From: Desulfotignum sp.
GTDB lineage: Bacteria > Desulfobacterota > Desulfobacteria > Desulfobacterales > Desulfobacteraceae
NCBI GenBank assembly: GCA_011390615.1
Contig: JAABSB010000017.1
Span: 1 to 34,740, forward strand
Direction of reading: 5' to 3'
Length of the DNA: 34,740 nt
Shown: positions 26,224 to 29,826 of the stretch, piece by piece
How the letters are laid out: every line of letters begins with the position of its first letter
Numbering within the stretch: the stretch's first letter is position 1
Translations under genes and position numbers: made by a program
The notes under the pieces: generated by a model
Database searches by the model: none
Told to the model about the DNA's origin: nothing
What the model saw: the letters and a program-made list of their open reading frames with translations, nothing else

Positions 26224-26964
26224 TTAAGACCATGTCATTTCAATACCAAATATCTGATATTTTACCCACTGGATGCCCAGTTCAAAAAGGGCCTCGTCTC
26301 TGTCCCGGATTTTCTCCACTACCAGCCCCGGCAGGACATTGGGTGCGAGCAGGTCCTGTTCAAAAATCTGGGTTTTGAATGTATCCAGATCATACAAAGC
26401 CTTATAGAAAAGGTCTGCGTGACCTCCCGCCAGTTTTCCGGGCATCATGCGATTTTTTAGACTGATCAATGCTATGAGTTGGTCATTGTAATGGTTGTGC
26501 AGGTCCACAGCCTGACTGTCCAGCCATTGCCGGACAGTCAGGCCCGTGTTTTTGCCAAATCCCATGCAATGTTCCTCTTCTATGAGGGCAAAATATTCCC
26601 TGATTTTTCCGCTCTCCCGGGAGCGGGAAATGGCGCGGGCCAAAGGATACATGCGGCAGGAACCAGGGCGGTCATGATACACGGAACAACCAGTTTCGGT
26701 GACAAAGGGGCAGGCATGGCCGAAGGCTGGATCTGGTTTGAAAGACACCACAGGCAGGCCGGAATCCGGTCCGAAATGGCGGGAGGTGTACCGGCGCAAA
26801 AATGTCCCGGAGTCAATACCCAGGCTGTTTTTCATCCGTAAAATATCATAGGGGGTCAGGGCCTGATTCAGATCCCGGCAGCACGCAGTGAAACATGCAT
26901 TGGCGGAACCGCAAAAAAACGGCATGGGATCGTTTTCAAAAACCGGTTTCATCTCTTCTGGCAT
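26224..26964 (-). CDS. YkgJ-family cysteine-cluster protein, second type
   Basis: A 246-residue member of the YkgJ/UPF0153 group: C18-x5-C24-x3-C28-C29 followed by the diagnostic CPFVTETGCSVYHDRPGSCRMYPLA (quoted in part: RPGSCRMYPLA; C85, C93, C103). The family is believed to bind a metal and its role is unknown; it is frequent in sulfate reducers. The C-terminal 120 residues are helical without recognised motifs. The gene diverges from aprB across a 410-bp intergenic region and probably starts an operon with the SDR-like gene. Confidence 0.88.
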   Translation of the reverse strand: MPEEMKPVFENDPMPFFCGSANACFTACCRDLNQALTPYDILRMKNSLGIDSGTFLRRYTSRHFGPDSGLPVVSFKPDPAFGHACPFVTETGCSVYHDRPGSCRMYPLARAISRSRESGKIREYFALIEEEHCMGFGKNTGLTVRQWLDSQAVDLHNHYNDQLIALISLKNRMMPGKLAGGHADLFYKALYDLDTFKTQIFEQDLLAPNVLPGLVVEKIRDRDEALFELGIQWVKYQIFGIEMTWS

Positions 26965-27048: not shown

Positions 27049-27093
27049 CGCCTTTTTACCTGGATGTTTCACTATATATAGTGTCAAAAGGCG
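27049..27093. promoter_or_regulatory. Nested palindromes in the region upstream of aprB
   Basis: A perfect 14-base palindrome CACTATATATAGTG (27070-27083) is framed by an 8-bp inverted repeat CGCCTTTT ... AAAAGGCG (27049-27056 and 27086-27093). A further AATATATATT lies just downstream. The symmetry suggests a regulator-binding site controlling the divergent ykgJ-like and aprBA promoters, but I do not recognise the motif as that of Rex, HcpR, CRP or Fur. Confidence 0.4.
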
Positions 27094-27173
27094 GATAAAC
27101 TTAATATATATTGTAATGCCGGCCTGAAAGCTAAGCATTTGAAAAATCAGATGAATCTTTTTTTTGAAAAATC

Positions 27174-27203
27174 TTGACAAAAACCACATGTCAGTGCTAT
27201 TGC
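27174..27203 (+). promoter_or_regulatory. Probable aprBA promoter
   Basis: An exact TTGACA (-35) at 27174-27179 is followed after 18 bases by TATTGC as a weak -10 box. The predicted start near 27210 would give a leader of about 165 bases that contains three hairpins. Confidence 0.5.
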
Positions 27204-27244
27204 CTTAGCATTTATGTGAAGACTGCGACTGATTGCACCTGCAT

Positions 27245-27300
27245 GCCAGTGCAGACACTGGCCTAAGAAATGACAGACCGGATGGCTGAAGCATGGTCTG
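27245..27300 (+). ncRNA. Two stem-loops in the aprB leader (candidate structured RNA)
   Basis: Stem-loop 1: GCCAGTG-CAGA-CACTGGC, a perfect 7-bp stem (27245-27262). Stem-loop 2: CAGACC-GG-ATG, loop GCTGAAG, CAT-GGTCTG, a 6-bp stem plus 3 bp above a GG bulge (27274-27300). Together with the terminator hairpin just downstream they make an ordered three-hairpin leader between the promoter and aprB. The segment TGCACCTGCATGCCAGTGCA also allows an alternative pairing that would disrupt stem-loop 1. I do not recognise a known riboswitch class. Confidence 0.45.
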
Positions 27301-27321
27301 AATTTGTTATAAAATATTGTT

Positions 27322-27345
27322 GCACAACGGTATTGTGCTTTTTTT
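27322..27345 (+). terminator. Terminator-like hairpin just upstream of aprB
   Basis: GCACAA-CGGTA-TTGTGC is a perfect 6-bp stem followed directly by seven Ts. It is on the coding strand of aprB and ends 29 bases before its ATG. No upstream gene on this strand could need it, so it is either a leader attenuator of aprBA or the end of a short RNA. Confidence 0.6.
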
Positions 27346-27374
27346 GATTAACTTAATTTATGGAGGTATTTTAA

Positions 27375-27812
27375 ATGCCGACTTTTGTAATCACAGAAAA
27401 ATGTGACGGCTGTAAAGGCGGGGATAAAACAGCATGTATGTACATCTGCCCGAATGATCTGATGGTTCTGGATCCCAATGAAATGAAAGCGTATAACCAG
27501 GAACCGGATCAGTGCTGGGAATGTTATTCCTGTGTGAAAATCTGTCCGTCCCAGGCCATTGAAGTCAGAGGCTACAATGACTTTGTCCCCATGGGCGCAT
27601 CTGTCGTTCCCATGCTGGGTACCGAAGATGTCATGTGGACCTGCAAGTTCAGAAATGGTGTTGTTAAACGGTTCAAGTTCCCCATCAGGACTACCCCTGA
27701 AGGCGAAGCCAATTCCTATGATGATCTCAAGGGCAAAGATTTGAATTCCGGCCTGCTTTCCACCCAGGAAGCAGACGGGTATGAATTTCCTACACCCCAG
27801 GAACTGGCATAA
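27375..27812 (+). CDS. aprB: Adenylylsulfate reductase beta subunit (Fe-S)
   Basis: A 145-residue AprB. Two [4Fe-4S] clusters are bound by C10, C13, C21, C25 and C47, C50, C53, C57 (CDGCKGGDKTACMYICP and CWECYSCVKICP); the insertion between C13 and C21 and the Trp after C47 are typical of the family. The C-terminal half wraps around AprA. The subunit passes electrons to the FAD of AprA for reduction of adenosine 5'-phosphosulfate to sulfite and AMP in the cytoplasm. The start follows TGGAGG. Codon choice is noticeably restricted, as expected for a highly expressed gene. Confidence 0.98.
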   Translation: MPTFVITEKCDGCKGGDKTACMYICPNDLMVLDPNEMKAYNQEPDQCWECYSCVKICPSQAIEVRGYNDFVPMGASVVPMLGTEDVMWTCKFRNGVVKRFKFPIRTTPEGEANSYDDLKGKDLNSGLLSTQEADGYEFPTPQELA

Positions 27813-27864: not shown

Positions 27865-29826
27865 ATGGCATTACCGAACAAACCTGTTGGAGAGCTTAAA
27901 GCAGTTAGAGACCCAGAGGTTGATAAAAGAGACGTTGATATTCTGATCATCGGCGGCGGTATGGCTGCCTGTGGAACTGCGTTTGAAATCAAAAAATGGG
28001 CGGATGAAGGCACCAAGATTCTGCTGTGTGACAAAGCTGCCCTTGAGAGATCAGGTGCTGTTGCCCAGGGTCTGTCCGCCATCAACACCTATGTTGGTGA
28101 AAACAAAATCGAAGACTATGTCCGCATGGTCAGAAACGACCTGATGGGTATTGTCCGCGAAGACCTGATCTATGATCTGGGCCGTCACGTGGATGACTCG
28201 GTTCACCTGTTCGAAGAATGGGGTCTGCCTGTCTGGAAGAAAACTGATGACGGCAAGAACATGGACGGTAAGAAAGGGTTGAAACTCGGAACCCTTAAAG
28301 CCGGTGCCACCCCGGTTCGTACCGGTAAATGGCAGATCATGATCAATGGTGAATCCTACAAGAGAATTGTTGCTGAAGCCGGCAAAAAAGCCCTTGGCGA
28401 AGACAACATCATTGAAAGATGCTTTATTGTTGAACTGCTCAATGACAAGGAAGATCCCAACCGCGTTGCCGGTGCTGTGGGTTTTTCTGTGCGGGAAAAC
28501 AAAGTCTACATCATTAATGCAAAAACCATTATGGTTGCCTGTGGCGGCGCGGTGAACGTTTACCAGCCCCGCTCTGTTGGAGAGGGAAAAGGCCGTGCAT
28601 GGTACCCTGTATGGAATGCCGGCTCTACCTATACAATGGCCCTGCGGGCTGGTGCTGAGCTGTCCATGATGGAAAACCGTTTCACCCCGGCCCGTTTTAA
28701 AGATGGTTACGGCCCTGTTGGTGCCTGGTTCCTGCTGTTCAAGGCCCAGACCGTGAACGGACTTGGTGAAAACTATGCTGCCTCTGATGAGGCCAAGGCT
28801 GAGCTGGAAAAATATGCGCCTTACGGCACAGCAGCTGTAACCCCCACCTGTCTGAGAAACCATCTCATGATGAAAGAATACAAAGAAGGCCGCGGGCCCA
28901 TCATCATGAAAACATCTGATGCCCTGGCAAAACTGGGTGAGACCATGAGCAAAAAAGAGCTCAAGCACCTGGAATCAGAAGCATGGGAAGATTTCCTTGA
29001 CATGTCTGTTGGTCAGGCTGGTCTGTGGTGTGCAACCAACACCGAACCTGAGAAAAAAGACTCAGAAGTCATGCCCACCGAACCGTACCTGCTGGGATCC
29101 CATTCCGGCTGCTGCGGCATCTGGTGCTCCGGTCCGGATGAAGACTGGGTCCCGGCTGACTACAAATGGGGCTACAACAGAATGACCACTGTTCGCGGTC
29201 TGTTCACTGCCGGCGACGGTGTCGGCTGTTCCGGACACAAGTTCTCTTCCGGTTCCCATGCTGAAGGCCGTATTGTTGCCAAATCCATGGTGCAGTACCT
29301 GAAAGCCGAAGGCGACAAGGTCACCGGTTTCAAAGAAACCGATCAGGAACTGGTTGACTATGTTTACAAACCGGTGAGAAACTACCTTGACCATTGTGAA
29401 TTCACAACTGCCCAGGATATCAACCCCAACTACTGCAAACCTGCCGGCATGGCACTGCGCCTCATGAAAATGACAAATGAGTACGGCGGTGGTACCGGTA
29501 CCTACTACATGACCTCAGGCAAGAATCTTGAAGTACTCATGGACCTGTTTGAAATGTTCCGTGAAGACCTTGAGAAAATTGCCGCAGGCGACCTGCATGA
29601 ACTGATGAGAGCATGGGAGATCAACCACCGTCTCTACACGGTTCAGGCCCATACACGTCATATCCAGTTCCGTGAAGAATCCCGGTATCCTGGTTTCTAC
29701 TACAGAGGTGACTTCATGGGCCAGAATGATGATGAATGGTTCTGCTTTACAAATTCATCATACAACAAAGAAACCAATGAGTGGACCCTCAAGAAAGTTC
29801 CCTACGTTAAGATTATTGCAGACTAG
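27865..29826 (+). CDS. aprA: Adenylylsulfate reductase alpha subunit (FAD)
   Basis: A 653-residue AprA of normal length. The FAD-binding motif ILIIGGGMAACGTAFE (26-41) and the fumarate reductase/succinate dehydrogenase-type fold are evident; GDGVGCSGHKFSSGSHAEGR is the conserved FAD-contacting segment near the active site. It catalyses the two-electron reduction of adenosine 5'-phosphosulfate, the central cytoplasmic step of dissimilatory sulfate reduction. The start follows TTTTGGAGG. It is 52 bases after aprB and is closed by a strong terminator, so aprBA can form its own transcript separate from qmoABC. Confidence 0.99.
   Translation: MALPNKPVGELKAVRDPEVDKRDVDILIIGGGMAACGTAFEIKKWADEGTKILLCDKAALERSGAVAQGLSAINTYVGENKIEDYVRMVRNDLMGIVREDLIYDLGRHVDDSVHLFEEWGLPVWKKTDDGKNMDGKKGLKLGTLKAGATPVRTGKWQIMINGESYKRIVAEAGKKALGEDNIIERCFIVELLNDKEDPNRVAGAVGFSVRENKVYIINAKTIMVACGGAVNVYQPRSVGEGKGRAWYPVWNAGSTYTMALRAGAELSMMENRFTPARFKDGYGPVGAWFLLFKAQTVNGLGENYAASDEAKAELEKYAPYGTAAVTPTCLRNHLMMKEYKEGRGPIIMKTSDALAKLGETMSKKELKHLESEAWEDFLDMSVGQAGLWCATNTEPEKKDSEVMPTEPYLLGSHSGCCGIWCSGPDEDWVPADYKWGYNRMTTVRGLFTAGDGVGCSGHKFSSGSHAEGRIVAKSMVQYLKAEGDKVTGFKETDQELVDYVYKPVRNYLDHCEFTTAQDINPNYCKPAGMALRLMKMTNEYGGGTGTYYMTSGKNLEVLMDLFEMFREDLEKIAAGDLHELMRAWEINHRLYTVQAHTRHIQFREESRYPGFYYRGDFMGQNDDEWFCFTNSSYNKETNEWTLKKVPYVKIIAD

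Follow-up and report, generated by a model that had tools for sequence, protein, structure and literature searches.

Is APS reductase, the key enzyme of sulfate respiration, controlled at the level of RNA in Desulfotignum, and if so, by which part of its transcript? Discussions of how dissimilatory sulfate reduction is controlled usually concern transcription factors, e.g. HcpR. In the window (the whole stretch of 34,740 nucleotides that we analysed) a first-pass annotation pointed to a structured leader in front of aprBA and read it as a riboswitch or attenuator ending in a terminator. We examined this leader in the window and in relatives, and weighed what its conserved parts may do.

The aprBA locus and its leader in the window

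The promoter, the elements of the leader and the flanking genes are listed in Table 1. Two HdrA-like genes come after aprA and were read as qmoA and qmoB. The first-pass annotation had placed correctly the TTGACA promoter, the three hairpins, and GCACAA/TTGTGC with seven T ending 29 bases before the aprB ATG. Its remark that no upstream gene on this strand accounts for the terminator agrees with the neighbouring gene being encoded on the opposite strand; a similar CxxCxxCC-domain gene adjoins the leader in L181 and L182 too.

Table 1. Features of the aprBA locus (window coordinates).
Feature	Position	Strand	Remarks
Divergent gene upstream of aprBA	26224-26964	-	CxxCxxCC (zinc- or iron-chelating) domain protein
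Promoter	27174-27203	+	TTGACA (27174-27179), 18-nt spacer, extended -10 TGC-TATTGC (27195-27203)
Leader	between promoter and aprB	+	order P1, P2, P3, T7, A/U-rich spacer, Shine-Dalgarno
P1 hairpin	27223-27254	+	CTGCG.../...TGCAG; CTGC/GCAG arms common to Desulfotignum leaders
P2 hairpin	27270-27310	+	inner helix CAGACC/GGTCTG, 27274-27279 with 27295-27300
P2 outer helix	27270-27273 with 27307-27310		ATGA/TTAT; separated from inner helix by a bulge
P3 hairpin	27322-27338	+	GCACAA-CGGTA-TTGTGC; found in 58 of 58 A/B-group leaders
T7 tract	27339-27345	+	with P3 a weak terminator-like site, Desulfotignum-specific; 29 bases left to ATG
Conserved A/U-rich spacer	27346-27361	+	GATTAACTTA...; little or no variation in TTAAC and its flanks
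Shine-Dalgarno of aprB	27362-27366	+	GGAGG; 8 nt 5′ of ATG, with few exceptions among the leaders
aprB, APS reductase beta subunit	27375-27812	+	TIGR02060, 203 bits (cut-off 136)
aprA, APS reductase alpha subunit	27865-29826	+	TIGR02061, 951 bits (cut-off 642)

The -10 of the aprBA promoter is a weak hexamer, which a consensus scan missed. TTGACA followed after 14-20 nt by TG[CTA]TA was present in all 52 leaders that we folded, 183-229 nt 5′ of aprB and upstream of every hairpin, and the transcription start is estimated to lie near 27210. Because of this arrangement, the TATAAT-like linker that joins P2 to P3 in the sister group described below was rejected as the real promoter for the A/B groups. 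Further upstream of the promoter the window carries the palindrome CACTATATATAGTG and AATATATATTGTA (27070-27083 and 27103-27115), and many family members have a TATATATTGT-like box upstream of theirs, possibly an activator site.

By itself, the leader in the window is not above chance. Its fold has an energy of -40.9 kcal/mol, compared with -35.8 +/- 3.6 for shuffled sequences (z = -1.41; 16 of 200 shuffles were equally good), and five terminator-like sites were found around it where 3.2 were expected, with no local enrichment over shuffles. The strongest hairpin of the SL1 region in this fold, GCCAGTG/CACTGGC (27246-27263), is not one that the genus shares. Mean fold z values over the 52 leaders were -1.69 for P1 and P2 and -1.53 for the full leader, and as these leaders are related the values are not independent tests. 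No second copy of the leader was found within its own genome, and no Rfam covariance model reached its gathering score in the window leader or in eight relatives, the best sub-threshold score being 15.4 bits where 56 were needed. When leaders were inspected by eye for a leader peptide, the window showed a seven-codon ORF at 27243 and L007 and L008 had longer ones, but relatives did not keep them in frame. It is the comparison with relatives, not the window alone, that indicates a real leader, through one model match per genome at aprB, covariation in P2 and P3, and the promoter found in every folded leader.

Conservation of the leader in Desulfobacteraceae

We assembled the regions upstream of aprB, 83 from relatives and 80 from named genomes, and used a covariance model, R1, that covers P2, P3 and the surroundings of the ribosome site. 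A covariance-model search, a check that the first-pass annotation had suggested, revealed a leader conserved at aprB: R1 matched once apiece in 60 of the 86 Desulfobacteraceae genomes, with nearly all E values below 1e-6 (the weakest 1.5e-5). Every match ends at the aprB start codon, as judged against the places of aprB and, for the truncated contigs L181 and L182, by direct examination. In the R1 search of the 86 genomes no other target gene was found to carry the leader, and all 54 matches obtained from a sample of 390 genomes of the order fell within Desulfobacteraceae and none outside. Named hosts are Desulfotignum, Desulfospira, Desulfobacula and Desulfobacter.

The hairpins differ in how they are conserved. 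In the inner helix of P2, 95% of the cells were paired across 24 relatives, with double changes at four of the six pairs, and the loop varies in length while the arms covary. The covariation score of P2 and P3 together was 0.211, versus 0.150 for shuffled alignments; none of 500 shuffles reached it and all slid versions scored lower. This alignment is uninformative on P3, which is invariant in it. P1 changes in sequence and length from genus to genus. In Desulfobacula its arms are 88% complementary, versus at most 51% when slid, and no covariation beyond shuffles was detected there, which makes P1 the least certain part of the leader.

A sister group (Desulfamplus, Desulfocicer and Desulfobacterium-like genomes) has the same leader layout, with P2, a differently sequenced P3 and an extra hairpin, P4. 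The arms of its P3 (GCGACA/TGTCGC, ACGGCAT/ATGTCGT and others) are paired in 94% of the cells, with double changes at three of seven pairs and a spacer of 7-15 nt, and several pairs differ from those of the window by compensated changes; this comparison with the window rests on position, as the sequences cannot be confidently aligned. P3 arms were paired by hand across the groups, the MAFFT alignment having misplaced the 5′ arm. P4 (GTTGCTGAAA.../...TTTCAGCAC) lies between P3 and the Shine-Dalgarno sequence, covaries, and is found in the sister group only (L014-L016, L020-L027 and L067-L072). The first-pass annotation had staked its reading on compensatory changes in homologous leaders, and these were found in both P2 and P3. 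Together with the restriction to aprB, the compensatory changes in P2 and in the P3 and P4 of the sister group identify this as a structured cis-acting mRNA leader.

P3, its distance from the ribosome site and possible modes of action

The strongest conservation in the leader lies in P3 and in the spacer to the ribosome site. The stem and most of the loop of P3 are near-invariant across 58 leaders of several genera, whereas P1 is free to change. In all 58 A/B leaders P3 is located 20-24 nt 5′ of the Shine-Dalgarno sequence, with a loop of 4-7 nt. Its stem is weak (-5.1 kcal/mol), with six pairs of which three are G-C. A run of 4-7 T follows P3 in 12 of 12 Desulfotignum leaders, versus one of 46 others, a leader of the Desulfobacula clade; the remaining 45 carry A/G-ATTTGATTAAC or similar at this place, so that P3 is kept without a T-run in 45 of the 58 leaders. 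Across these leaders selection has preserved P3 and the spacing between it and the ribosome site, but not the U tract, and since both are kept without it, the conserved role would not be termination.

The reading that we favour, at a probability of about 50%, is of a structured 5′ UTR motif of Desulfobacteraceae, dedicated to aprBA and acting on mRNA stability and/or ribosome loading, with P3 as its core. We infer that it acts after initiation. Transcription would begin near 27210 and the first ~130 nt would fold into P1, P2 and P3, with P3 ending 20-24 nt before the Shine-Dalgarno sequence, so that an A/U-rich stretch is left as a landing strip for the ribosome. Thus folded, the leader may set ribosome loading, shield the mRNA in its 5′ part, or do both; the near-invariant P3 may be read by a protein or an RNase, probably aiding this action, and some weak, partial termination may come on top of this in Desulfotignum through its extra T-run. 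Against a stabilising role stands the sequence of P3 itself, as pure stabilisers rarely require one so fixed.

The openness of the landing strip is unsupported by folding, since the ribosome site is predicted to be mostly paired (mean unpaired probability 0.18) through a small GGUAU/AUGCC hairpin. This hairpin, GGUAU(UUUAA)AUGCC within 27362-27384, covers the Shine-Dalgarno sequence, the AUG and codon 2, and is predicted in most family leaders, because a Shine-Dalgarno sequence and AUG-CC (Met-Pro codons) form the pairing by default. Masking of the Shine-Dalgarno sequence was rejected as a conserved switch, both through this hairpin, which shows no covariation, and through pairing with the U tract, which is confined to the Desulfotignum lineage. 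Pairing of the P3 loop with the start codon was rejected too, as loop variants occur without matching start-codon changes.

In one alternative explanation, P3 would be the operator of an RNA-binding protein or of a specific processing enzyme regulating aprBA, with P1 and P2 as scaffolding. The near-identity of P3 over 58 leaders of several genera next to a changeable P1 speaks for such an operator, as does a recurrence of the GCACAA/TTGTGC stem in the rplL-rpoB gap of the Desulfobacter clade. That site is restricted to the one clade, however, no protein candidate is at hand, and the sister group swapped the whole P3 sequence while keeping the fold, and we therefore hold this explanation to be unlikely, if the best placed of the alternatives. 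The rplL-rpoB copy (GCACAA-N5-TTGTGC) occurs in about ten genomes (L169-L178), has no U tract, and overlaps an alternative hairpin, ATAGTTT/AAACTAT.

The T-run of all 12 Desulfotignum leaders would also fit a leaky terminator, by which P3 and T7 yield a stable small RNA of ~130 nt beside the aprBA mRNA. A small RNA ending at 27345, which the first-pass annotation had named as its alternative, would accordingly be a candidate in Desulfotignum only. Leakiness would be required, since aprBA is among the most needed operons, and the six-pair stem with three G-C pairs, as well as the restriction to one lineage, render this somewhat less likely than a protein operator.

The switch proposed by the first-pass annotation, in which a ligand or the state of a ribosome selects between P3 with T7 as terminator and an antiterminator, accounts for the terminator layout in all Desulfotignum, and the size and position of the leader are as expected for it. 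What stood of that proposal is the conserved structured leader; a conserved terminator switch did not. The hairpin that had been called a clean terminator is weak and its U tract is missing from nearly all relatives that keep P3. The alternative pairing TGCAC/GTGCA is lost in L004 and L007, and the competing hairpin TTGTTGCACAA is gone from five of the 12 Desulfotignum leaders and from all other genera; conservation of an antiterminator was judged on these two pairings only. Neither unpaired nor junction nucleotides were found to form a conserved aptamer core, P1 and the P2 loop diverging among genera, and the leader has neither a second gene nor an Rfam match. Riboswitch control of aprBA is thus unproven, and we consider it improbable, slightly more so than leaky termination.

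Least likely is that P3 and/or P2 are transcription-factor palindromes in the DNA: P3 is a near-perfect palindrome, and HcpR is predicted to control Desulfovibrio apsAB through TTGTGA-N6-TCACAA (PMC545781), but the conserved promoter is situated well upstream of both elements, the arms of P3 stand in the opposite order to those of the HcpR site, and the variable P3 spacer (4-7 bp, the sister group having 7-15 nt) and the covarying arms of P2 around loops of variable length fit RNA hairpins better than a dimeric operator.

Leaders of other families and comparison with known systems

The aprB leaders of other Desulfobacterales families lack P3. Instead, a ribosome-binding-like 11-mer, GAAGGGAGGTG, was found with at most one mismatch in 53 of 71 of them, mostly 85-105 nt before the start codon and usually 5-10 nt 3′ of a hairpin, and in just one case followed by a start codon. 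Extended by one base to a 12-mer, it was present roughly once in each of eight genomes, for the most part at aprB. The 11-mer is near-invariant in L104-L165 and L029-L085 (e.g. L118, L120 and L145). At one mismatch it was found in none of 71 leaders of the window's own family. mRNA-stabilising STAB-SD elements are ribosome-binding sequences without a gene, and by analogy GAAGGGAGGTG looks like a STAB-SD-type or ribosome-docking element. Two unrelated elements in the aprB leader suggest that the output of the operon is what is selected, and a dedicated element in other families points to control of the expression level rather than to one sensor. We tentatively put forward, as a possibility well short of even odds, that P3 and its fixed spacing are what a so far undescribed regulator, either a protein or a metabolite, recognises in the RNA, and that this regulator sets the level of APS reductase, and with it of sulfate respiration, in all Desulfobacteraceae, with GAAGGGAGGTG in a matching role in the other Desulfobacterales families.

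The aprBA leader motif appears to be new, with no Rfam match and no description of an aprB leader RNA found in open-access papers, an absence that is weak evidence. A leader conserved on the APS reductase operon across a family offers a concrete, testable RNA element for the sulfate reduction pathway, and reporter constructs allow P3 and its spacing to be altered directly.

Among known systems, HcpR, a CRP/FNR regulator predicted to control the Desulfovibrio genes apsAB and sat (PMC545781), shares with P3 a palindrome at APS reductase genes. Its site is a DNA operator over the -10 box with arms TTGTGA/TCACAA, whereas P3 has arms GCACAA/TTGTGC ~120 bp downstream of the -10, and is thus no TTGTGA-N6-TCACAA operator overlapping a promoter. 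The gcsH motif (WRC-77-1), a leader motif described from two Desulfobacteraceae genera (PMC11109978), is, compared by description, likewise rare, structured and confined to this family, but its target is gcsH, not aprB. Attenuators and riboswitch leaders resemble the Desulfotignum case in having a long structured leader with a hairpin and T-run just ahead of the ribosome site in a metabolic operon; the aprBA leader differs from them in its unconserved T-run, in lacking a conserved antiterminator or ligand core, and in having one target. mRNA-stabilising 5′ UTRs include the ompA-type 5′ hairpins and the STAB-SD of Bacillus cry3A. The latter resembles the aprB leaders of other Desulfobacterales families in its extra ribosome-binding-like motif upstream, unlike those of the window's family, where none of 71 leaders has a STAB-SD-like 11-mer at one mismatch. 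As a class, these stabilising UTRs share with the aprBA leader 5′ UTR hairpins before a housekeeping operon, and what sets the aprBA leader apart from them is a near-invariant internal hairpin held at a fixed distance from the Shine-Dalgarno sequence.
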